From a virus: a stretch of 43,730 nt of DNA. The translations under genes were made by a program, and so were the position numbers. Within the stretch, counting starts at the first letter, position 1. Each line of letters starts with the position of its first letter. Location of the stretch: IMG/VR virus record IMGVR_UViG_3300025669_000069, positions 1 through 43,730 of that record; one strand, written 5' to 3'. The notes under the pieces were generated by a model. The model was not told the DNA's origin. It made no database searches and saw nothing but the letters and a program-made list of their open reading frames with translations. This document shows positions 9,404 through 43,730 of the stretch, piece after piece.

Positions 9404-10551
9404 AACTACCAGTAGTTTATTCGCAACATGACATTAGATGGAACGACCTAAAACTAGGTGGTTCCAATTCGAGTATCGGGGGATATGGTTGTACCATTGC
9501 CGTTTACAGTATGCTGGCAGAATATTATGGACACCATATTAATCCAGCAGGTTTTAATAAGCTAATGATTGAGAAGGGTTTATATGTAGGAACGTACAAG
9601 AACCTGTATTCAATGAATGCTATTACAAAACTATTTCCAGATATTAAATACAGAGGATTCACAGACACTCCAAACGCAGTAACAGACGAACAGTTTGCAC
9701 TGATTCATAGAGAGTTAGATAATAAAAGACCAGTTGTAATTAAGGTAAAGACATCCCGTAGTTATCATTATGTCCTTGCGACAGATTATACAGGACAGGG
9801 GTTAGAGATTGTAGATCCGATAGATGGAAGGATACGGACTCTAAGAAGTAGATATGGTACAGATAGATTCGCTATACACAGGTACGTTTTTCATACAGGT
9901 ATTTTAGTAAACACAAGTATGCCGACATTAGATTTTTCACAGGGAAGTTTTCTTGCAGACACAAACGGGAAGTACAATGCTTCCGTAGGACTGGTAGAGA
10001 TTATAGAACAAAGAGGGGGTAATGTAGTTATACAAGCTTTCTGGCCAGATGGGACAGAGTTTAAGAGGGAGGTTCCTTTCCATGAATTGACGCTGCTTAA
10101 TAGGGATACCAAGACTTTGGAAGAAGAGATTGAGAGATTGATTCTTTCTAATAATAATTCGATGGCGCAATTGAAGACGGCCTTAGTTTCAGAAGGTGCG
10201 GCGAAAGCAAGAGCCACTAATCTAGATGAAATGCTAGCAAAAACAAAAACAGATATTAAAAGAGAAGTTGCAGCGAATAAAATTATTCGTGATAGTCTAA
10301 TGGAAACATCAGATAAGTTGAAACAATTAGAAGGAGAGAATTATAAACTTGTTAAGCAAGTTATAGCCTATAGTAGTACTTTGAAAAGAGAGAGAAAAGA
10401 GTGGGAGAAAGAAGAGGTTATCTATAAAGAGAATATAAAAGAGTTGGAGAAGAAGTTATTAGAGAACCCCTTGTTCTTTAAACAAGTGGTAAACAAAATT
10501 ACGGTATTTATTTTAAAAGTTATCAGTAGATGGAAAAGGTTAAAAGTTTAA
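9400..10551 (+). CDS. C39-like cysteine peptidase with coiled-coil tail
   Basis: Residues 1-170 fit the papain-like C39-type peptidase fold: Cys31 in GGYGCTIAVYSML, His123 in SYHYVLATDY and Asp139 in EIVDPIDG form a plausible triad. In phages such domains act as cell-wall endopeptidases or virion maturation proteases. The remaining ~200 residues are Glu/Lys-rich, predicted coiled coil. A holin candidate begins inside its 3' end, suggesting an endolysin role in a lysis cassette. A structural role, with the coiled coil anchoring it in the tail, is an alternative. No signal peptide is visible. Confidence 0.65.
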   Translation: MKLPVVYSQHDIRWNDLKLGGSNSSIGGYGCTIAVYSMLAEYYGHHINPAGFNKLMIEKGLYVGTYKNLYSMNAITKLFPDIKYRGFTDTPNAVTDEQFALIHRELDNKRPVVIKVKTSRSYHYVLATDYTGQGLEIVDPIDGRIRTLRSRYGTDRFAIHRYVFHTGILVNTSMPTLDFSQGSFLADTNGKYNASVGLVEIIEQRGGNVVIQAFWPDGTEFKREVPFHELTLLNRDTKTLEEEIERLILSNNNSMAQLKTALVSEGAAKARATNLDEMLAKTKTDIKREVAANKIIRDSLMETSDKLKQLEGENYKLVKQVIAYSSTLKRERKEWEKEEVIYKENIKELEKKLLENPLFFKQVVNKITVFILKVISRWKRLKV

Positions 10552-10784
10552 TTAATAAAATCCCAAAAGAAATTAAAGATGGATTTATTAAAGGAGTAAA
10601 GGTATCTGGTTACATTGGAGTTTCAGTTGGGCTAGGAGTTTTATTCAGTGAAGAGTTCAAAGGTGTGCTGTCAGAATATGGATGGTATGCAATGTATGGG
10701 GGCGTAATAAATGTCGCCTTGTCCGTATTAACGAAAATCTTAAAGGAGAAATATCCGGACTTGATTATATTCAGATTGGTCTAG
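10530..10784 (+). CDS. Holin-like protein
   Basis: 84 residues with two hydrophobic segments (GYIGVSVGLGVLF and YAMYGGVINVALSVL) separated by a short charged turn, and a charged N-terminus. This is the usual size and topology of a class II holin. It overlaps the end of the peptidase gene by 22 bases and is followed at once by a strong terminator, so it is the last gene of the rightward late operon. Identification rests on topology and neighbours. Confidence 0.65.
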   Translation: MEKVKSLINKIPKEIKDGFIKGVKVSGYIGVSVGLGVLFSEEFKGVLSEYGWYAMYGGVINVALSVLTKILKEKYPDLIIFRLV

Positions 10785-10797
10785 TAGTACAAACAGA

Positions 10798-10825
10798 AAG
10801 ACCCGCATAAAGCGGGTCTTTTTTT
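10798..10825 (+). terminator. Rho-independent terminator of structural operon
   Basis: A 9-bp perfect stem (AAGACCCGC / GCGGGTCTT) with a 5-base loop is followed by a run of T. It lies between the rightward holin-like gene and the leftward tRNA cluster. Confidence 0.93.
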
Positions 10826-10826
10826 A

Positions 10827-10940
10827 TGGTCAAGGTAGGAGTCGAACCTACGCACTGTGGGGGCTTTCCACTTATTTCGGTATTCCCTTATTCGTTGTTT
10901 TAACAACCCCCGACTGCTCTAACCACTGAGCTACTTGCCT
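10827..10940 (-). tRNA. tRNA-like gene with enlarged anticodon/variable region
   Basis: Read on the minus strand it has a canonical D-arm (GCTC AGTGGTTA GAGC), a canonical T-arm (GTAGG TTCGACT CCTAC) and a 3' CCA. The region between them is about 35-40 bases longer than in a normal class I tRNA. It contains a GTTGT/ACAAC hairpin, a possible TCGG/CCGA stem and a GTGG/CCAC hairpin. The acceptor can form only CAAG/CTTG plus weak pairs. I cannot assign an anticodon. It could be an intron-containing or class II-like tRNA, a tRNA mimic, or decayed. Confidence 0.6.
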
Positions 10941-10948
10941 TATTAAAC

Positions 10949-11022
10949 TGGTTGGGAGACTAGGAGTCGAACCTAGATGACAAAGCCCAAAACTTTGCAT
11001 CCTACCATTAGATGACCTCCCA
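10949..11022 (-). tRNA. tRNA-Gln (UUG)
   Basis: A full cloverleaf can be drawn: acceptor TGGGAG/CTCCCA, D-arm around TCTAATGGTAGGA, anticodon stem CAAAG/CTTTG with loop TTTTGGG (anticodon TTG, reads CAA), T-arm CTAGG TTCGACT CCTAG, discriminator A and an encoded CCA. This is the only orthodox tRNA in the window. It directly abuts the CCA end of the next tRNA-like element. Confidence 0.92.
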
Positions 11023-11090
11023 TGGCAAGAACCCTCGGAATCGAACCGAGCCAGTTTGGAGACCACCTCGCCAACCTTGGAACATTAGCC
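11023..11090 (-). tRNA. Degenerate or non-canonical tRNA-like element
   Basis: The 3' half is tRNA-like: T-arm CTCGG TTCGATT CCGAG, discriminator-like G and encoded CCA. Upstream of it, TCTCCAAA resembles a tRNA-Trp (CCA) anticodon loop, but the flanking bases do not pair. No complete D-arm or 7-bp acceptor stem could be drawn. It fills the space between the tRNA-Gln and the stop codon of the small membrane protein gene. It could be a decayed tRNA-Trp, a truncated tRNA, or a 3'-processing signal. Confidence 0.4.
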
Positions 11091-11267
11091 TTATTTATAA
11101 AACGCCCACATCTTTATTGTTTCGTAAACAATAATTGAAACAAGAATTCCCAATATTCCGACCATTCCCATAGAACATCCACAACCTATCTTCATGGCTA
11201 TTTCTTTGTTTAAAACCTCGAGCCCTAAGGGGTCTCTATCCTGTTCTGAGTGTTCAAGTGGTATCAT
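11091..11267 (-). CDS. Small membrane protein (58 aa)
   Basis: The open frame begins ATG with residues MIPLEHSEQD and ends TAA. Residues ~29-48 are hydrophobic (MGMVGILGILVSIIV), giving one transmembrane helix, with a CGC motif just before it and an acidic N-terminus. It starts 8 bases after the stop of the HNH gene in a tightly packed array, which supports it as real. No family is recognised. It might be a toxin-like or superinfection-related membrane peptide, but nothing in the sequence proves this. Confidence 0.6.
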   Translation of the reverse strand: MIPLEHSEQDRDPLGLEVLNKEIAMKIGCGCSMGMVGILGILVSIIVYETIKMWAFYK

Positions 11268-11274
11268 AGTGCCA

Positions 11275-11733
11275 TTAGGATGCTAAACTCGTTAGAAGGG
11301 CATCAGAGCTCGTCTGCTGGTATTTGTCCATTTCAACCATCATTTTCTCTAATTCTTGTAGGTTTCTGTATTCTTCCCCTAAAAAATCAATCGTAGTCTT
11401 CTCGGTTTTGAACTTTCTTGCCTGTAAATAGTCGAGTCGTTTCTTTCCGATATGTTTTCCAAGCCAGTCATTGAAAGCGACTAATCCAAAATAGTCTTTT
11501 GAGTGAGCTGATATTTCTCCGAACGTGTGATGTGTCGGGCAAAGCACCATTGCGTTTGCTAAATCCCATCTTAAAATCCTACAGCGTCCCTTGCCTACTA
11601 TGTGATGAACGTTTAGGGTTGGGTGTGGATTGTGACAAAACTCACAAACATCCATTGCCCGAATCTTTGCGAGTTTCTTCCATAGAGCTTCGCTCTTGCT
11701 ATTTAATTGTTTTTTCTTTTTCTTTATTGTCAT
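11275..11733 (-). CDS. HNH / NinG-like zinc nuclease
   Basis: The core has CEFC, NVHHIVGKG, the NAMVLCPTHH block and a later conserved Tyr/Trp-rich helix. These are the zinc-binding Cys/His pairs and HNH histidines seen in NinG/Rap-like recombination nucleases and other HNH proteins. I place the start at the internal ATG (MTIKKKKK). A longer frame reaches upstream but would run into the tRNA-like element. The Lys-rich N-terminus may contact nucleic acid. Likely roles are Holliday-junction or branched-DNA cleavage, or a free-standing homing-type nuclease beside tRNAs. Confidence 0.7.
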   Translation of the reverse strand: MTIKKKKKQLNSKSEALWKKLAKIRAMDVCEFCHNPHPTLNVHHIVGKGRCRILRWDLANAMVLCPTHHTFGEISAHSKDYFGLVAFNDWLGKHIGKKRLDYLQARKFKTEKTTIDFLGEEYRNLQELEKMMVEMDKYQQTSSDALLTSLAS

Positions 11734-11743
11734 TTTAAAAATT

Positions 11744-11837
11744 GGGGCGAGAGTGAGACTCGAACTCACATAGATGGTATACCCATTGCTTTACCTCGTT
11801 AGTCTGCGTCGACACACCTAACATTAAGCTATCCGCC
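11744..11837 (-). tRNA. tRNA-like element with hairpin inserted in the D-loop region
   Basis: On the minus strand, GGCG pairs with CGCC at the ends, the T-arm is GTGAG TTCGAGT CTCAC, and D-stem halves GCTT and AAGC are present. They are separated by a ~26-base insertion that itself forms a hairpin (GTTAG/CTAAC). The anticodon region is about 5 bases too short for a standard tRNA and can fold as ATGG/CCAT. No CCA is encoded and the anticodon is not assignable. It lies immediately 3' of the large structured noncoding region and may be part of that RNA. Confidence 0.45.
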
Positions 11838-11844
11838 TTGACGA

Positions 11845-11868
11845 AAGTCGCTAATTTCTTAACGACTT
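11845..11868 (-). other. 10-bp hairpin with GAAA tetraloop
   Basis: On the minus strand AAGTCGTTAA and TTAGCGACTT pair (one T-G wobble) around a GAAA loop, 7 bases before the tRNA-like element. This is the 3'-most helix of the structured RNA candidate. Confidence 0.8.
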
Positions 11869-11876
11869 CGCATCTC

Positions 11877-11893
11877 TTTCTACTATTGTAGAT
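11877..11893 (+). other. Solitary Cas12a-repeat-like hairpin
   Basis: The plus strand reads TTTCTACTATTGTAGAT, matching the conserved 3' stem-loop of type V-A (Cas12a) CRISPR repeats (TCTAC / GTAGA around a 4-5-base loop). Only one copy is seen and no cas gene is nearby. It lies inside the region otherwise interpreted as a minus-strand RNA, so it may just be one of that RNA's helices. Confidence 0.3.
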
Positions 11894-12224
11894 GAGTTGC
11901 GGCAGACACAACTTCAACAACATCGATTCATTCAGCTTACGCCTACTTATACCTACTCCATGTGTTGTACATAAAGGGCAGGACTTATTATAGTTATGTT
12001 CACCGTGAACCACCCGAAGGTGTGAGATCACTTACTGGAAGGGGGATTAAGATGTGTTTTCCAGGGATCTTGCGATCACCCTTATCCCACTTCGGGAAGC
12101 TAAGCCCGACCCCCAAGTTTGCAATTCACTATCTTGTTTTTAGCTTGTCCAACCGAAGATTACTAGGCCGACTGTCCCTTTCCTCTTCGTACATTAGGGG
12201 GTGAATACCCCTTATTCTGTCATT

Positions 12225-12292
12225 CCAGTAGAGACAACCCTTTGGTTATCCCTACTAATGATAAGGCAATGCCGAAACATTGTCTCTACTGG
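12225..12292. repeat. 13-bp inverted repeat
   Basis: CCAGTAGAGACAA and its perfect reverse complement are separated by 42 bases that contain a smaller TTATC/GATAA stem and a GGC-AAT-GCC hairpin. It is followed by an AGGGGAGG/CCTCCCCT inverted repeat (12293-12330). Both are near the 5' end of the structured RNA. Confidence 0.93.
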
Positions 12293-12340
12293 AGGGGAGG
12301 GCTCTAAAACCTTACCGGTCTACCTCCCCTAGTTGACTTT

Positions 12341-12369
12341 ATCTTATCACGTATCATCTTCCTTGTCAA
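12341..12369 (-). promoter_or_regulatory. Promoter for structured RNA/tRNA-like region
   Basis: On the minus strand: TTGACA, a 17-base spacer, then TAAGAT. It overlaps the 3' end of a 37-codon gene. Expected start is near 12334, directly at the first inverted repeat of the noncoding region. Confidence 0.8.
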
Positions 12370-12460
12370 GCATTTTCCGGAAGATTGCTTTACAAGAGAT
12401 TATTAACCCTACTAACAAAAACAGGAATGCTTCTATAACATCCCACAATCTTTTCTCCAT
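12347..12460 (-). CDS. Small membrane protein (37 aa)
   Basis: A short frame begins MEKRLWDVIEAF. One hydrophobic helix (FLFLLVGLIISC) is followed by a basic-then-acidic tail ending KEDDT. AGGA precedes the start at suitable spacing. It lies downstream of the RNA ligase gene in the same direction, and its 3' end carries the promoter of the noncoding RNA. No family is recognised. Coding status is inferred from the start signal, the plausible membrane topology and the position in the gene array. Confidence 0.5.
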   Translation of the reverse strand: MEKRLWDVIEAFLFLLVGLIISCKAIFRKMLDKEDDT

Positions 12461-12472
12461 TATCCTACGCTA

Positions 12473-12499
12473 AATATACTCTATATATTAGAGTATATT
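12473..12499. repeat. 11-bp palindrome with 5-base centre
   Basis: AATATACTCTA and TAGAGTATATT flank TATAT, between the RNA ligase stop and the small membrane protein gene. The TATACTC core resembles the repeated TATACTCA boxes at 14981-15006, so both could be binding sites for one regulator. Confidence 0.85.
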
Positions 12500-12509
12500 A
12501 TTCACAAAG

Positions 12510-13397
12510 TCAACGTTTTAGATTGTTGATAAGCGTATTCTTTAATACACTAACACACCTTTTAGAAGTAAGTGATCGGAATCTTTTAAAGCTAATTACC
12601 CAATCTGACTTAAAGATTTCAAAACCACACTCGCCAACAATGTCATGGATAATTCTATAAGGAAGGAACTTCATCATTTCCATCTGCAACTTCTCTCCCT
12701 CGTCAATCATCTTAAAAATATGCTTTTCGATTCGAGCATTAGTTACATAGGTGGCACACATCTTCGCATCGTCCGTTAGAGCGTGTTTGGGAGAGCCTCC
12801 AAATGCCAACATATGCTTTTCTTTAAATTTCTTTGTAACAAGCTTTGCAAAAATTTCTCTTTTATAGTTTTTAAAAACAATCCCCTCTGATTGTCCATCA
12901 TAATACTTTGAAGGCGGAATCATGCCCTCGTTTATCTCTTCAATGTCTTTAGCATTGCAAATTCTAACAAGAGGAACTAGAGGTAGGTCAAGTTTGTTGA
13001 ATAGGCTTACTTTTTCATCGTAGTCTAAATACCCCCCGTTTTCTAGGTCTATTACATCAAACCCCAAATAAGGAGGTATCCTATCCCAATCATATTGCAC
13101 ACTATGGGCTACACAATTCTCTCCACAGAACATTAAACCTTCGGGCTTATATTTGTCTCTCACCTTGTCAAACTTCTCCCGAAGGTATTGTATTACTCTT
13201 TTAAAGTTACCTGAACCCTCTCCCTCAAGATCGCAATTCCTACTTCCGAAATATGCTTCTCCGTCTTTAAACATAAAGCGGAAGTTAGCACCGTCGATTT
13301 TCTCCTCAATGAAGATTGTATCATCGCCATCAAGGAATATCAATTCGTTCTCTTCGTTACCAATTGCGTATATTTTTGGATACTTGATTAGGTTCAT
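12510..13397 (-). CDS. ATP-dependent RNA ligase (Rnl2-like family)
   Basis: The protein carries the nucleotidyltransferase motifs of RNA ligases: motif I EEKIDGANFR with nucleophile Lys33, motif III-like LGFDVID, motif IV EGIVFKNY and motif V AKLVTKKFKEKH. FCGEN matches another conserved block. Such enzymes seal nicked RNA, typically tRNAs cut by host defence nucleases. The ~100 C-terminal residues are helical and may recognise the substrate. The gene overlaps the preceding gene by four bases (ATGA) and lies upstream of the tRNA cluster and structured RNA, consistent with tRNA repair or processing of those unusual RNAs. Confidence 0.85.
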   Translation of the reverse strand: MNLIKYPKIYAIGNEENELIFLDGDDTIFIEEKIDGANFRFMFKDGEAYFGSRNCDLEGEGSGNFKRVIQYLREKFDKVRDKYKPEGLMFCGENCVAHSVQYDWDRIPPYLGFDVIDLENGGYLDYDEKVSLFNKLDLPLVPLVRICNAKDIEEINEGMIPPSKYYDGQSEGIVFKNYKREIFAKLVTKKFKEKHMLAFGGSPKHALTDDAKMCATYVTNARIEKHIFKMIDEGEKLQMEMMKFLPYRIIHDIVGECGFEIFKSDWVISFKRFRSLTSKRCVSVLKNTLINNLKR

Positions 13398-13810
13398 TCA
13401 AATAGACTTGGTAGTATCTCTCTTATTTTTTGTCCTTTATACATATGTGGAGCATCCAATAGAATTTTCTTTTGTTCTTTTGTAAGTACTAGCTTTGATT
13501 CTTTTTCGTATTTAGCAAGGTCATCCTTTAATTCTTTCGTCCGAGTCTTTAAGTCCTCCATCTCATGAAGGTATCTTTTTACCCCAATTAAATATTCCAC
13601 AAGCTGAAATTTCTCCGTTGCAACCTTTGATTCTTCTAGGGCCTTCATTGCTTTTGTTAAATATTTTTTCTCTACCTTGACTACTGTTCGTTCTTCTGTT
13701 CGTTCTTCTGTTCGTTCTTCTGTTCGTTCTTCTGTTCGTTCTACCTCGCACATTGTTTTTTCTTCCATGCCGGTTATCGTGACCGGATTATATGTTTCTT
13801 GTCTTATCAT
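13394..13810 (-). CDS. Coiled-coil protein with RTEE repeats
   Basis: 138 residues, no recognised family. Residues ~24-42 consist of four RTEE units encoded by a 12-base tandem repeat. The rest is a Lys/Glu-rich predicted coiled coil (LKTRTKELKDDLAKYEKES) with a short C-terminal segment. It sits between the SSB-like gene (TAATG junction) and the RNA ligase gene (ATGA overlap), so the three are probably translated together. A role as a partner in nucleic-acid repair is possible but unsupported. Confidence 0.7.
   Translation of the reverse strand: MIRQETYNPVTITGMEEKTMCEVERTEERTEERTEERTEERTVVKVEKKYLTKAMKALEESKVATEKFQLVEYLIGVKRYLHEMEDLKTRTKELKDDLAKYEKESKLVLTKEQKKILLDAPHMYKGQKIREILPSLFE
13685..13744 (-). 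repeat. 12-bp tandem repeat (RTEE codons)
   Basis: Four complete copies and one partial copy of a 12-base unit (plus strand TGTTCGTTCTTC) encode Arg-Thr-Glu-Glu. The copies are identical, suggesting slippage or recent expansion. Confidence 0.95.
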
Positions 13811-14292
13811 TAGTATGGAAGGTCTTCTGGATTAACAACATCCTTTTCTTCTTTTTCTGGTACTTTCATATCTTTTTCTGATGGAACGTAGTCTGTAATC
13901 TTACAGTATTGAACATCTTCTTGTGGTTTAATACTAAGGATTATCTGCTGTCCAATTAGTTCATTCACGTCTTCTTTACCATATAAGTCTAAGTCTCCTA
14001 ATTCTGGATATACTGCTTTAACTATATTGTATAAATTAGAGCCGTCACGTCCTTTTCTAGGGGCGGAAATAAATGGTTTAACCCAATCCTTCCATACGAG
14101 TCTATCGTTCTGGTCTCCCTCTGTTAGAACACGGAAGACAAACGTATATAATTCATCTCCCACTTTGTTGTATTTGGAATCTTCCTCAATAAACTTGTCT
14201 TTTACATCATCTATTACTACTTGATATAGACCTGCTTTCCAAGGCTTGTATTCTTTTGCTTCTTGTTTCTGCATCTTTATTGTTGCTGGCAT
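13810..14292 (-). CDS. Single-stranded DNA-binding-like protein
   Basis: 160 residues with a beta-rich core (AGLYQVVIDDVKDKF, DELYTFVFRVL, VWKDWVKPF, GQQIILSIKP, CKITDYVPS) suggestive of an OB fold. A C-terminal acidic tail ends NPEDLPY, resembling the acidic, proline-aromatic tip with which SSB proteins recruit partners. It is first in a likely operon with the coiled-coil protein and RNA ligase, under a strong promoter. It probably protects phage single strands and recruits host replication or repair factors. The family assignment rests on pattern only. Confidence 0.65.
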   Translation of the reverse strand: MPATIKMQKQEAKEYKPWKAGLYQVVIDDVKDKFIEEDSKYNKVGDELYTFVFRVLTEGDQNDRLVWKDWVKPFISAPRKGRDGSNLYNIVKAVYPELGDLDLYGKEDVNELIGQQIILSIKPQEDVQYCKITDYVPSEKDMKVPEKEEKDVVNPEDLPY

Positions 14293-15261: not shown

Positions 15262-15335
15262 ATTTTTCTTACTAAAATAAAAAAGGTTGTGGGTAGGTAT
15301 CTACCGTTTATCCATTGTCCCGTATGCTTGAATAG

Positions 15336-15364
15336 ATAATAGCAGAAAGATTCGACCTTGTCAA
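15336..15364 (-). promoter_or_regulatory. Promoter of small coiled-coil gene
   Basis: Minus strand TTGACA, 17-base spacer ending TGC, then TATTAT: a consensus -35 with extended -10. The leader to the gene at 15261 is about 65 bases. Confidence 0.85.
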
Positions 15365-15426
15365 GCATATTATAAAGAAAAGACCCCAAATTAATGAAGT
15401 CTTTAGGACTATTTAATAAAATTTCG

Positions 15427-15870
15427 TTATTTACAGGAACAATACTCTATGTCCTCTCTTTCTAAGGGCTTGAAACACGTCTCACAAAGGGAAAACTTAA
15501 TCTTTTTCGTTATTTCTTGTCCTTTTTCCTTACTTATCTCTACTGCTAGCTTCTCACTACTCCAATTATTAGCGTCTGCCATCTCTAACCACTCTACTGG
15601 TCTCTCTGTATATGCGGCTTTGGCGTGATGTCTATGACTTAGTCTAGGAATTCTATTATCCATGCCAAATGTCTCTGCAACCCTTCGATATTGATACATT
15701 GTACTCCTTGCAAGTCCTACCTCTATACTAAACTTACCCAAACAATCCTTACCATATGCGGCCGTTACCAAAAGTGCCAAATCCCCCAACTTCCATTGTG
15801 TATTATCCTTTTTCTCCCTTATCACAATTGCCGTAGACAACAATTCTTCCCACGTTGGCTTATTTTCCAT
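15427..15870 (-). CDS. HTH DNA-binding protein with C-terminal zinc ribbon
   Basis: The central part resembles the helix-turn-helix of ParB/KorB-like and phage DNA-binding proteins: GKFSIEVGLARSTMYQYRRVAETF, followed by LSHRHHAKAAY and WLEMADANNWSSEKL. The C-terminus has CETC and CSC, a likely zinc ribbon. I place the start at the ATG giving MENKPTW rather than the TTG four codons upstream. It may regulate the early arm or act at a replication origin. No enzymatic motif is seen. Confidence 0.65.
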   Translation of the reverse strand: MENKPTWEELLSTAIVIREKKDNTQWKLGDLALLVTAAYGKDCLGKFSIEVGLARSTMYQYRRVAETFGMDNRIPRLSHRHHAKAAYTERPVEWLEMADANNWSSEKLAVEISKEKGQEITKKIKFSLCETCFKPLEREDIEYCSCK

Positions 15871-16102: not shown

Positions 16103-16113
16103 TACTATCCTCT

Positions 16114-16257
16114 TTACTTAACCCAATCTTTTTTATGATACTTCTGTTTCCATTGAGACCTTGCTTCTATCCTTCTTTGTTTATGAGATTTAACAACCGT
16201 TATCCTTTTACCCTGTACATCCTGTAAACATTTATTGTTATTTAAACGTATAACCAT
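16114..16257 (-). CDS. Small basic protein (47 aa)
   Basis: A short frame starting MVIRLNNNKC contains a strongly basic C-terminal half (KSHKQRRIEARSQWKQKYHKK), suggesting nucleic-acid binding. It is the first coding frame after a ~390-base noncoding leader and is followed 11 bases later by the next gene. No family is recognised. Its length means coding status is not certain. Confidence 0.5.
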   Translation of the reverse strand: MVIRLNNNKCLQDVQGKRITVVKSHKQRRIEARSQWKQKYHKKDWVK

Positions 16258-16651
16258 TTTCTATCGTTCGGTTTGATTTCTTTAAGGACGCACCCCCCTT
16301 ACCCCCCTCGAGAGATAAGAGCTAAGCACTGTGCTCTAACCCATTTATGAAGCCTTCAAACGTTGACCAAACCTTTTACAATCCCTCTTCGGGACTCAGG
16401 AGACACGTTTGGGCTATTTAAAGCGAACCGTTTCTCTCCATCTTCTTATCTGCTCTATCGTTTCGGAATCATTCCTGTCGTTACGCTGTTGTTCCTTCTT
16501 TATACTAGCGAACAACTTATTATCGTTCTCTTCAGAACTTCCACCCCCTTATTGCAGGTGTGGAATCCCCACTAGTGTATTTGCAAAAGACCAGACATAA
16601 TATGTGTTAATCAATCCTAGTGGGGTATTATGTTAGGTCTTTTATCAATAC
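16258..16651 (-). ncRNA. Structured noncoding leader / RNA candidate (about 390 nt)
   Basis: No convincing gene fills this stretch, although it follows a consensus promoter. Its 5' part carries two interleaved inverted repeats that could form a pseudoknot (16567-16643). Further on are a TCCC/GGGA hairpin near 16383 and an AGAGC/GCTCT palindrome near 16320. It could be a free RNA, a long regulatory leader for the small basic protein, or an origin region. A weak 33-codon TTG-started frame exists inside but lacks a clear start signal. Confidence 0.5.
16567..16643. repeat. Interleaved inverted repeats (pseudoknot-capable)
   Basis: CCCCACTAG at 16567 pairs with CTAGTGGGG at 16617. AAAAGACC...CATAATA at 16585 pairs with TATTATG...GGTCTTTT at 16626 (16 of 18 positions). 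The order is arm 1, arm 2, arm 1', arm 2', which as RNA would be an H-type pseudoknot. Confidence 0.85.
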
Positions 16652-16657
16652 AGATAT

Positions 16658-16686
16658 ACATTAGCATACATCTTCTCAAATGTCAA
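16658..16686 (-). promoter_or_regulatory. Promoter upstream of pseudoknot region
   Basis: Minus strand TTGACA, 17-base spacer ending TGC, then TAATGT. The expected start near 16651 is 8 bases before the first pseudoknot arm. Confidence 0.75.
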
Positions 16687-16694
16687 GGATATTA

Positions 16695-16714
16695 GCCCGC
16701 ATTTTATAGCGGGC
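16695..16714 (-). terminator. Hairpin after the 16726-18247 gene group
   Basis: GCCCGC and GCGGGC form a 6-bp GC stem with an 8-base loop, between the last gene of the upstream group and the next promoter. There is no good U-run, so termination is probable but not certain. Confidence 0.5.
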
Positions 16715-16725
16715 CGTAATATTGG

Positions 16726-34277: not shown

Positions 34278-34691
34278 ATGATTCAACACATAGAAGACCA
34301 AAACGGACATGTTATGCCAGTTGATGGTTACACGGATCCAACAACAGGCAAGACTTATGCCTATGCTCATCACATGACAACGACGAGTACAAGCACAAGT
34401 ACAAGTACATCAACAAGTACATCAACAAGTACAACTACAACGTCCAGCAGTACGACAACAAGTACAAGTACTTCAACAAGTACAACTACAAGTACGACAA
34501 CTACATCGAGTAGTACAAGTACTTCAACAAGTACAAGTACTTCAACAAGTACAACTACAAGTACGACAACTACATCGAGTAGTACAAGTACTTCAACAAG
34601 TACAACTACAAGTACTACTACAAGTACGTCAACAAGTACAAGTACATCAACAACTACAACGAGTTCTAGCACCACAACTACACTTCTTTAG
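34278..34691 (+). CDS. Mucin-like Thr/Ser-repeat protein (137 aa)
   Basis: After 33 normal residues (IQHIEDQNGHVMPVDGYTDPTTGKTYAYAHHM) the protein is about 100 residues of only Thr and Ser, ending in LL. The N-terminal part resembles a small capsid- or membrane-associated tag. The gene lies immediately upstream of five glycosyltransferase genes, so the tract is the most obvious candidate acceptor for O-linked sugars. The DNA is a low-complexity ACA/AGT/ACT/TCA mixture. Exact repeat count may be affected by assembly. Confidence 0.65.
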   Translation: MIQHIEDQNGHVMPVDGYTDPTTGKTYAYAHHMTTTSTSTSTSTSTSTSTSTTTTSSSTTTSTSTSTSTTTSTTTTSSSTSTSTSTSTSTSTTTSTTTTSSSTSTSTSTTTSTTTSTSTSTSTSTTTTSSSTTTTLL

Positions 34692-40007: not shown

Positions 40008-41714
40008 TTGACGACAACAAGTACCACAACAACGTCGACAACTACGACCAGTTCAAGCACAACTACTACAAGTACTTCGACAACCACAACTAGTACGTCA
40101 ACCACGACCACGTTACCATTACACTTTAATGAACGGGATGGGCAGTTCTATTCTTCTGGAATACTTTTGAGAGATTCGGACGATAAGATTGCATTTAGAT
40201 TTACCCCTTGGCAAACAACACGGATAAGTGAGTTATATCTTTATTTGTCAAAAAGTGGAACTTCACCAACATTTAGGTTTGGGATACAATCCGATAATGC
40301 AGGAGAACCATCGGGATCTTTTCTAGCTAGTGCAACCGGTACAATCAGCTCTTCGGTGGGGGGTTGGAAGAAACTTGTCCTTAGCGAATATGCAGCATTA
40401 ACAGCCGGCGCAACATACTGGATTGTAATGGAACATTCTAGTGGAACTATAGACGGTTCAAACTATGGTGTTATGGGGATGGCTAATAGTAGCGACTCCA
40501 CATGGGTTTTTAACGATATAGAGGGAGACCTTGCAGTATTTAGTTATAACGGCTCTACTTGGTCAGAAGAAAGCTCTCATACCCCCCTCTTCGGGACGGA
40601 AACATTGATTGGGCAACCCATAATTAGATTCGACCTCTATCCAACATACAGCATAAATGACTCGCAGTATGTTAAGTATGCAGAGAAGGTTAAATTTGCA
40701 GAAAACAAAACAGTTGCAAGCATCAGGTTTAGCATACGAAAAGAAACGGAGGGTGTTGACGATGATCTATACTATGAGATAAGAGAAGAGGACGACACGC
40801 TTTTAAGAAGCGGAATTGTCGTAAAACACACAATGGCCATTTGGGGCAACAATATGTGGGCAGAGGCTAACCTCAGCAGCCCGTTAACCCTGATAGCAGA
40901 CACCTACTATAGGCTGATATTGTATTCTGAATCCTCGATTGGGAATGAATGGTATATCAATTATGCAGAGGTTTCAATAAGTGGGGAAGAGTCTCCACAA
41001 CAGGAGAATGCGGGATATGGGGGACAGCATTGTTTTTTAGATAAATATGTGGATAGCGCATGGGGAGGATTAGGGGGAGATGCCGTTGAGAAAGATTTAT
41101 TGTTCGGTATTGAGGCAACGAGCACGAGCACAAGCACTTCAACAAGTACGAGTAGCTCAACAAGTACGACTACTTCGACAAGTACAAGCACCTCTACTTC
41201 AACTAGTACTTCTACCACAACTACTAGTAGTTCAACAAGTACTTCTACTTCGACCACAACAACAAGTAGCTCTACCTCAACATCAACTAGTACGTCAACC
41301 AGTACGACCACTACATCGAGTAGTACCAGTACGACCACGAGTACTTCAACGAGTACAACAACAAGTACGTCAACAAGTACTTCTACCACAACAACACTTG
41401 CGTTTATATTACAGGAAACGGGAGATGTTATTTTACAAGAAACAGGAGATAAGTTGGCACTTGAACAATTGGGCACAACTACCTCGACAAGTACAACAAC
41501 AACCAGTACAACCACTACAAGTAGTAGCACTAGTACAACTACAACAACCAGTTCTAGTACGACTACGACTAGTTCGAGTACATCAACAAGTACAAGTACA
41601 TCAACAAGTACATCAACAAGTACCTCTACTACCACACTCTCAATTGAGTTTGGTAGTTTAGGGATAGATATTATACAGGACAAATTTACATATAACTTAG
41701 ACACAAAAAACTAA
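40008..41714 (+). CDS. Tail-associated protein with three Thr/Ser tracts
   Basis: 568 residues from a TTG directly after a terminator, with no leader and no normal N-terminal domain. It starts as ~37 residues of Thr/Ser ending TTTTLP. Residues ~38-365 are a beta-rich domain containing two similar jelly-roll-like halves (RDGQFYSSGILLRDSD, FRFGIQSDNAGEPSG, LSEYAALTAGATYWIVM). Two more long Thr/Ser tracts flank the motif ILQETGDVILQETGDKLALEQ. The beta part resembles carbohydrate-binding or receptor-binding tail domains. The true start could be a non-annotated codon or the gene a recombinant. Confidence 0.65.
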   Translation: MTTTSTTTTSTTTTSSSTTTTSTSTTTTSTSTTTTLPLHFNERDGQFYSSGILLRDSDDKIAFRFTPWQTTRISELYLYLSKSGTSPTFRFGIQSDNAGEPSGSFLASATGTISSSVGGWKKLVLSEYAALTAGATYWIVMEHSSGTIDGSNYGVMGMANSSDSTWVFNDIEGDLAVFSYNGSTWSEESSHTPLFGTETLIGQPIIRFDLYPTYSINDSQYVKYAEKVKFAENKTVASIRFSIRKETEGVDDDLYYEIREEDDTLLRSGIVVKHTMAIWGNNMWAEANLSSPLTLIADTYYRLILYSESSIGNEWYINYAEVSISGEESPQQENAGYGGQHCFLDKYVDSAWGGLGGDAVEKDLLFGIEATSTSTSTSTSTSSSTSTTTSTSTSTSTSTSTSTTTTSSSTSTSTSTTTTSSSTSTSTSTSTSTTTTSSSTSTTTSTSTSTTTSTSTSTSTTTTLAFILQETGDVILQETGDKLALEQLGTTTSTSTTTTSTTTTSSSTSTTTTTSSSTTTTSSSTSTSTSTSTSTSTSTSTTTLSIEFGSLGIDIIQDKFTYNLDTKN

Positions 41715-42607: not shown

Positions 42608-43730
42608 ATGAGTTATTATATATTACAGGAAACAGGTGATGCTATCCTCCGAGAGCAAGGAGACCATATACTCCTGGAGCAAACGACTACGTCTACTAGT
42701 ACTTCAACGTCTACTACGACTACTTCAAGTTCTACGTCTACAAGTACTTCAACCAGTACAACTACTACATCTACTTCAACAAGTACATCAACTAGTACAA
42801 CTACAACACTTCCGTTCTTCTCAACACTAACAGAAGATTTTAATGATAACAGTTTAGATTTTGACAAGTGGGGCTATTGGGGTTCTTATGATGCAGGTGT
42901 TGCAGAAACTAGTCAACAATTAGAGCTTACCACAAAAGCTGTTAATGGAGCTTATCTTGGTTTAATCACAGACCTGATTTATAATTTGACAGGAAGTTCC
43001 GTTTTCGTTGAGGTTGTTAATCAAGGCAATCAAACTCTGGAATCTTTTGAGGGATACCCTTTAACCTTAACAGACGCAGCAGAATCAAATTATATCGAGT
43101 TTAATATAATTGGCGGTGTTTTAAACGTATATAAAAGAGTTTCTGACGTTTCAACAAAACTAGCTTTTGACACATTCGACTCTGTAAACCATAGGTTTTT
43201 ACGAATCCGAGAAGATAGTGGAACTACCTATTGGGATACTTCTGCAGATTGTTCTTCTTGGACAAACTTTCATTCGGTAGCTAATCCTATTACAGTTACA
43301 GCACTTTATGCAAAATTAGCAGTTGGAACATGGCAAACAGAAGTTTCTACAACCGACTTTATTCTTGATAATATAAATGTGGTAACTACAACCAGTAGTT
43401 CTACATCAACGAGTACTTCTACCAGTACAAGTACTTCGACTTCTACTACGACTACTAGTAGTTCTACCAGTACAAGTACTTCGACTTCTACTACGACTAC
43501 TAGTAGTTCTACCAGTACAAGTACTTCGACTTCTACTACGACTACTAGCAGTTCTACTTCAACAAGTACCTCAACTAGTACAACTACAACCAGTAGTTCT
43601 ACAAGTACAAGTACTTCGACTTCTACTACGACTACTAGTAGTTCTACCAGTACAAGTACTTCGACTTCTACTACGACTACTAGCAGTTCTACTTCAACAA
43701 GTACCTCAACTAGTACAACTACAACCAGTA
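42608..43730 (+). CDS. Thr/Ser-rich virion protein, 5' part (continues at position 1)
   Basis: Begins MSYYILQETGDAILREQGDHILLEQ, a motif also present inside the preceding tail protein (ILQETGDVILQETGDKLALEQ). A ~40-residue Thr/Ser linker ends TTTTLP. Next is a ~185-residue lectin- or laminin-G-like beta domain (TEDFNDNSLDFDKWGYWG ... IDDN-type end), and then a tract of Thr/Ser running over the window edge into the first 669 bases. Probable total about 570 residues. The lectin-like fold and mucin-like stalk suggest a surface adhesin or fibre. Confidence 0.75.
   Translation, partial: MSYYILQETGDAILREQGDHILLEQTTTSTSTSTSTTTTSSSTSTSTSTSTTTTSTSTSTSTSTTTTLPFFSTLTEDFNDNSLDFDKWGYWGSYDAGVAETSQQLELTTKAVNGAYLGLITDLIYNLTGSSVFVEVVNQGNQTLESFEGYPLTLTDAAESNYIEFNIIGGVLNVYKRVSDVSTKLAFDTFDSVNHRFLRIREDSGTTYWDTSADCSSWTNFHSVANPITVTALYAKLAVGTWQTEVSTTDFILDNINVVTTTSSSTSTSTSTSTSTSTSTTTTSSSTSTSTSTSTTTTSSSTSTSTSTSTTTTSSSTSTSTSTSTTTTSSSTSTSTSTSTTTTSSSTSTSTSTSTTTTSSSTSTSTSTSTTTTS
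42689..42811 (+). repeat. Thr/Ser-coding low-complexity repeat
   Basis: About 40 codons of Thr and Ser in the pattern shared by the other tracts, ending in TTTTLP. Similar DNA occurs at 2955-3002, 33799-33858, 34375-34686, 40008-40118, 41115-41397, 41475-41640 and 43384-43730 plus 1-588. Confidence 0.95.
43384..43730 (+). repeat. 45-bp repeats coding SSSTSTSTSTSTTTT
   Basis: A 45-base unit (15 codons) recurs, several copies exact, within a higher-order 135-base period (43547 and 43682 start the same unit). The repeats run through the contig ends, so the number of copies at the join cannot be trusted. Confidence 0.93.
43652..43730. repeat. Terminal direct repeat, right copy
   Basis: Identical to positions 1-79. 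Merging both copies preserves the reading frame of the Thr/Ser gene (1044 bases from 42608 to 43651, exactly 348 codons, then frame 1 at position 1). Confidence 0.9.

Follow-up and report, generated by a model that had tools for sequence, protein, structure and literature searches.

A highly structured non-coding RNA candidate ahead of tRNA-like genes in a probable Patescibacteria phage

A virus record of 43,730 nucleotides (IMG/VR IMGVR_UViG_3300025669_000069, the whole of which is called the window here) carries on its minus strand, from 12334 to 11838, a non-coding interval of about 497 nt with a strong computed fold, lying between a predicted promoter and a run of tRNA-like genes. A preliminary description of this DNA had noticed a highly structured non-coding interval, and that observation is confirmed. 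The reading of this interval (RNA1) that we prefer, tentatively and with slightly more doubt than confidence, is of a free-standing structured RNA that would be the first product of its operon, be released by RNase P and act in trans as a decoy or scaffold.

RNA1 has a GC content of 45% as against 39% for the window. Between the stop of an RNA ligase gene (12510) and a tRNA-like gene (11837) the only ORFs are one of 37 aa and two GTG-started frames. The frames across RNA1 have no credible Pfam or PHROG match, so that the interval is gene-free as had been claimed, and a search for a conserved protein frame running through it returned no credible family. The features of the locus are these:

12510 to 13397, minus strand: RNA ligase gene, upstream of RNA1 (Pfam RNA_ligase, 7.5e-24)
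12463 to 12350, minus strand: 37-aa putative membrane ORF, upstream of RNA1
12341 to 12370, minus strand: predicted sigma-70-type promoter CTTGACA-17-(TG)TAAGAT, predicted transcription start about 12334
12224 to 12293, minus strand: predicted main hairpin of RNA1, 15 pairs of which 14 are perfect Watson-Crick, mean pair probability 0.97-0.98
12191 to 12220, minus strand: predicted hairpin ACA-GAAUAA-[GGGGU..ACCCC]-CUAA-UGU, the source of a weak manA match
12154 to 12189, minus strand: predicted hairpin CGAAGA/UCUUCG with inner GGG/CCU
12066 to 12077, minus strand: predicted hairpin GAUC-GCAA-GAUC, pair probability about 0.66 in the full-length fold and 0.47-0.65 in other contexts
11901 to 12004, minus strand: predicted 3' domain, a long imperfect stem GGU..GCC with ACAUAACU/AGUUGUGU, UAAUAA/UUGUUG and two inner hairpins
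11870 to 11900, minus strand: predicted hairpin GCA.CUC.UCUAC-AAUA-GUAGA..GAG.UGC, complement of a Cas12a-repeat-like 17-mer
11844 to 11869, minus strand: predicted hairpin GAAGUCGUUAA-GAAA-UUAGCGACUUU, directly before the tRNA-like gene
11735 to 12031, minus strand, and 11962 to 12204, plus strand: GTG-started frames crossing RNA1
11743 to 11837, minus strand: tRNA-like gene whose D-loop carries an additional hairpin of about 26 nt (Rfam tRNA 27.2 bits, cut-off 29)
11275 to 11733, minus strand: HNH endonuclease, NinG-like (PHROG matches)
11023 to 11079, minus strand: truncated tRNA-like element with T-arm, CUCCAAA loop and CCA end, without D-arm; no ARAGORN or Rfam call
10949 to 11022, minus strand: normal tRNA-Gln(TTG) (ARAGORN, Rfam)
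10827 to 10940, minus strand: tRNA-Asn(GTT)-like gene with a 36-nt anticodon-loop insertion (Rfam 39.6 bits; ARAGORN intron mode)
10797 to 10821, minus strand: intrinsic terminator AAAGACCCGC..GCGGGTCTTT, the operon end

The minus strand of RNA1 folds at -162.8 kcal/mol as against a mean of -134.7 for 200 dinucleotide shuffles (z -4.28), none of which folds as well, and its energy is the lowest among 178 tiles of 490 nt taken from both strands (runner-up -148.0). Taken alone a low z-score is not specific, since two coding tiles, 29975(+) and 5475(+), reach similar values (z -3.8 and -4.25, 100 shuffles); z is -3.5 for the plus strand of the interval and -3.43 for the 3' half of RNA1. The best single structural feature is the main stem, 12293-12280/12237-12224, in which 14 consecutive Watson-Crick pairs bear out a stem earlier put at 13 bp and exceed the longest stem, of 12, among 150 dinucleotide shuffles. 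Of the other stems described before, the 10-bp one with a GAAA loop is predicted at 11868-11859/11854-11845 and the GCAA one at 12077-12066, but the UUCG hairpin (12022-12011) forms when the 3' half is folded alone and meets a competing 10-bp alternative in the full-length fold. At the 5' end two mutually exclusive arrangements, a local GGGGAGG/CCTCCCC and a long-range GGGAGGT/GCTTCCC together with GAGCCC/GGGCTT, differ by 1.3 kcal/mol, so that no single predicted fold of RNA1 is secure. Folding of the one sequence seems to fix reasonably well only the main hairpin, the hairpins next to it and the 3' domain.

The consensus minus-strand promoter that had been claimed is present at 12369-12341 as CTTGACAAG...TG-TAAGAT, that is TTGACA-17-TAAGAT with an upstream TG, and overlaps the last codons of the 37-aa ORF. 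A scan of 10500-13400 gave 7 consensus sites with 6.9 expected, and so a consensus match alone is no proof of a promoter. The extended form, CTTGACAAG or GTTGACAAG with TGT-TANNAT, also precedes the ORFs at 14292(-), 20928(+) and 22461(+), and so has the look of a promoter type that this phage uses. This promoter and the terminator at 10821-10797 bracket an operon in the order RNA1, tRNA-like gene, HNH nuclease, tRNA-like element, tRNA-Gln, tRNA-Asn-like gene. The tRNA neighbourhood is thus as described earlier, with three matches to the Rfam tRNA model downstream of RNA1 (50.6, 39.6 and 27.2 bits); at the gathering score Rfam reports two tRNAs only for the whole window, and ARAGORN at its default finds the tRNA-Gln alone and no tmRNA. 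Three aberrant tRNA-like genes (within 10827-11079 and at 11743-11837, minus strand) adjoin the one normal tRNA-Gln, and these may be decay, decoys or unusual tRNAs. Unusual tRNA settings were also seen in other records: in a member of the phage family (IMGVR_UViG_3300049046_000147, L423:6053-6406, minus) a non-coding stretch holds a tRNA T-arm within a long hairpin, with a D-arm-like GTAGCTCAATAGAGAGC further on, and in IMGVR_UViG_3300004154_000029 (L443:18593-18666, minus) a tRNA-Pro lies apparently within an open frame whose product resembles the RNA ligase RtcB.

RNA1 is an orphan, since no collection searched yielded a homologue. Distant blastn against phages (INPHARED) gave six weak matches, all of them within the promoter or an arm of a tRNA, and no homologue was found among PLSDB plasmids, in the viral records carrying RNA-ligase relatives, in two close terminase relatives and three others, or in 43 contigs of the phage family by DNA search and by nhmmer over the family. 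None of the 120 loci retrieved with the motif GACAGAATAA-N-TAATGT has extended similarity to RNA1, an 18-mer found one match, judged chance, and 384 host-class genomes gave matches to a tRNA part and a CRISPR repeat only. Two single-sequence covariance models (R1 and R2) run over 1.4 Mb recovered themselves only, apart from a complementary hairpin and a chance match at E 2.3 with R1. A folding screen of structured gaps in the phage family turned up small ORFs or terminators in many of them and nothing that resembled RNA1. With no relative found, the structure and function of RNA1 remain predictions.

Through its capsid protein the phage can be placed in a family with 79 IMG/VR loci, the majority of them 50-67% identical, and in the early region that holds RNA1 most genes are without a detectable relative in it. 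A search of 84,980 species genomes with a 20-mer of the tRNA-Gln matched four contigs and no more, all of them Patescibacteria (two Nomurabacteria, one Campbellbacteria and one further), the closest tRNA being 86% identical over 70 nt. The phage ORFs have no Shine-Dalgarno motifs, which fits a Patescibacteria host. These ultra-small bacteria are probably the host; a capsid-profile search of the 384 host-class genomes found one weak relative only, and so the host is probable, not proven. An archaeal host was considered because the closest known relative of the ligase is in the halovirus Halogranum virus HGTV-1 (the best IMG/VR relative is at 49%), and was rejected on the bacterial-type promoters, the encoded CCA ends and the Patescibacteria match of the tRNA-Gln. 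In or beside the late genes of the window are Thr/Ser-rich short tandem repeat arrays (1-590, 34377-34659, 40017-41623 and 42687-43730).

A second non-coding structured interval lies at 16258-16665 on the minus strand of the window, preceded by a terminator and a TTGACA-17-TAATGT promoter. The gap that holds it (16103-16725) folds with z -3.0, none of 100 shuffles being as low, and an H-type pseudoknot is predicted from 16643-16626/16602-16585 with 16625-16617/16575-16567. It has no Rfam match save chance microRNA models, and no homologue was found. A relative of the phage (IMGVR_UViG_3300028920_001971, L303:15346-15640) has in its early region a different GC-rich folded non-coding stretch, for which 15300-15640 gives z about -2.6 and no Rfam match.

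For RNA1 we propose that its own promoter would drive an RNA-tRNA-HNH-tRNA operon of which it is the first product, and that host RNase P would cleave the transcript where the tRNA-like gene at 11743-11837 begins, the probable site that fixes the 3' end of RNA1. So freed with a defined 3' end, RNA1 would act in trans while the phage infects its host. As a decoy or scaffold it would most likely bind either the translation machinery or a nuclease of the host, a role that the aberrant tRNAs and the RNA ligase nearby would fit. Computation shows the fold, the lack of coding potential, the promoter, the terminator and the order of the operon, whereas transcription, release by RNase P, the action in trans and the decoy or scaffold role are inferred. 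The second structured and promoter-preceded RNA in the same phage suggests that such RNAs belong to its biology.

A cis-acting leader and a stretch without function are the serious rivals to a trans-acting RNA1. As a leader it would be the structured 5' part of the tRNA/HNH operon transcript, its alternative 5' folds setting read-through into the tRNAs, or the transcript end being protected. That RNA1 is the first segment past the promoter and has two exclusive 5' folds within 1.3 kcal/mol suits this, but no intrinsic terminator is found inside RNA1 on the minus strand, RNA1 with its roughly 500 nt would be a long leader and the next element is a tRNA-like rather than a protein gene, and we regard a leader as possible but unlikely. 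The interval could instead be functionless as one RNA, being hairpin-rich intergenic or decayed sequence whose fold is partly due to chance or composition. The lack of homologues, the aberrant or decayed look of the adjoining tRNA genes, the similar z of the coding tiles and a GC content above the genome average would all follow; set against them are the lowest energy of the 178 tiles, the perfect 14-bp stem and a phage-type promoter directly upstream. Unused stretches of 500 nt are rare in phage genomes, and this too counts against a functionless stretch, which we think rather improbable.

The reading of RNA1 as a far-diverged member of manA, a putative riboswitch found in marine phages, is close to refuted. 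manA (RF01745) is the only notable Rfam match, spanning all 192 model positions with UGAC.GAAUAA and UAA.GU at matching places (E 0.0027 for 341 nt against 4227 families), but its 20.4 bits are 35 below the cut-off of 55.2, and in the same comparison unrelated microRNA models reach E 0.012. The blocks AAGGUGAUGAGACACAGGUGGUGC and UGUAGUAAUGCCC, which recur in the manA loci of marine-virus IMG/VR records (40 listed of 101 extracted), are absent from RNA1, and a manA family search of the whole window gave no candidate. The shared part is the internal loop of the 12191-12220 hairpin, GAAUAA opposite UAA, which we take to resemble the recurrent UAA/GAN motif. With the conserved blocks missing and a loop of recurrent type in common, RNA1 is not filed as manA. 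Very unlikely also is a functional element on the plus strand, where TTTCTACTATTGTAGAT at 11877-11893 is identical in 17 of 17 letters to the 3' half of a Cas12a CRISPR repeat, TTTCTACTNTTGTAGAT, and could be a lone repeat acting as an RNA anti-CRISPR. Cas12a is carried by 19 of the 384 genomes of the likely host class, and Racrs, solitary CRISPR repeat RNAs, against type V-A exist (PMC10651486). However, compared with the host-class array the 5' half of the repeat is missing, no plus-strand promoter was found upstream of the repeat in the scan of 10500-13400, the predicted transcription of RNA1 runs in the opposite direction and the hairpin fits RNA1's own fold.

Among known RNAs, some of the large ornate type share the setting of RNA1. 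The preliminary description had proposed a large structured RNA beside tRNAs with its own promoter, which stands on folding, promoter and context, and had further suggested either a new class or a divergent GOLLD or ROOL to be sought with covariance models. Run through Rfam at E<=10 over 10700-12560, that search matched neither of them, nor a group I or II intron, RNase P or tmRNA, and membership of GOLLD or ROOL is rejected; the accession RF01998 given for GOLLD is presumably not that family's. ROOL is, we assume, similar in size to RNA1. Of the other known systems, manA shares with RNA1 the one internal-loop hairpin and occupies what may be the 5' UTRs of protein-coding genes (PMC2864571), unlike RNA1, which precedes a tRNA-like gene. 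With Racrs RNA1 shares a phage non-coding segment with a CRISPR-repeat-like hairpin (PMC10651486), but its repeat is a 3' half only and, rather than lying in sense orientation behind its own promoter, is antisense to the predicted transcript. GOLLD is a non-coding RNA of phages and prophages, large and highly folded, that lies close to tRNA genes and has no known function, and ROOL, also an RNA of phages, is large and ornate and is often found by tRNA islands (PMC12286853). Like GOLLD, RNA1 is a phage RNA located near tRNA genes; unlike it, RNA1 has about 495 nt as against more than 800 for many GOLLD members, its fold is predicted from a single sequence, and the conserved 3' region of GOLLD has no alignment match in it. 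GOLLD forms a 14-mer nanocage, and nanocage assembly and high abundance mark ROOL. Since the setting of a large folded phage RNA near tRNAs is shared, RNA1 may work alike without membership. That Patescibacteria phages contain a new class of large ornate RNAs, trans-acting and possibly multimeric like GOLLD and ROOL, with RNA1 and perhaps the RNA at 16665-16258 as its first known representative, is a doubtful idea. Large ornate phage RNAs are few and unexplained, and Patescibacteria are nearly unstudied at the RNA level. An unrelated candidate from their phages would widen the kind, this phage family being a place to seek relatives able to supply covariation, and if the idea is true there would be a second system in which to ask why RNAs of this kind adjoin tRNA genes.
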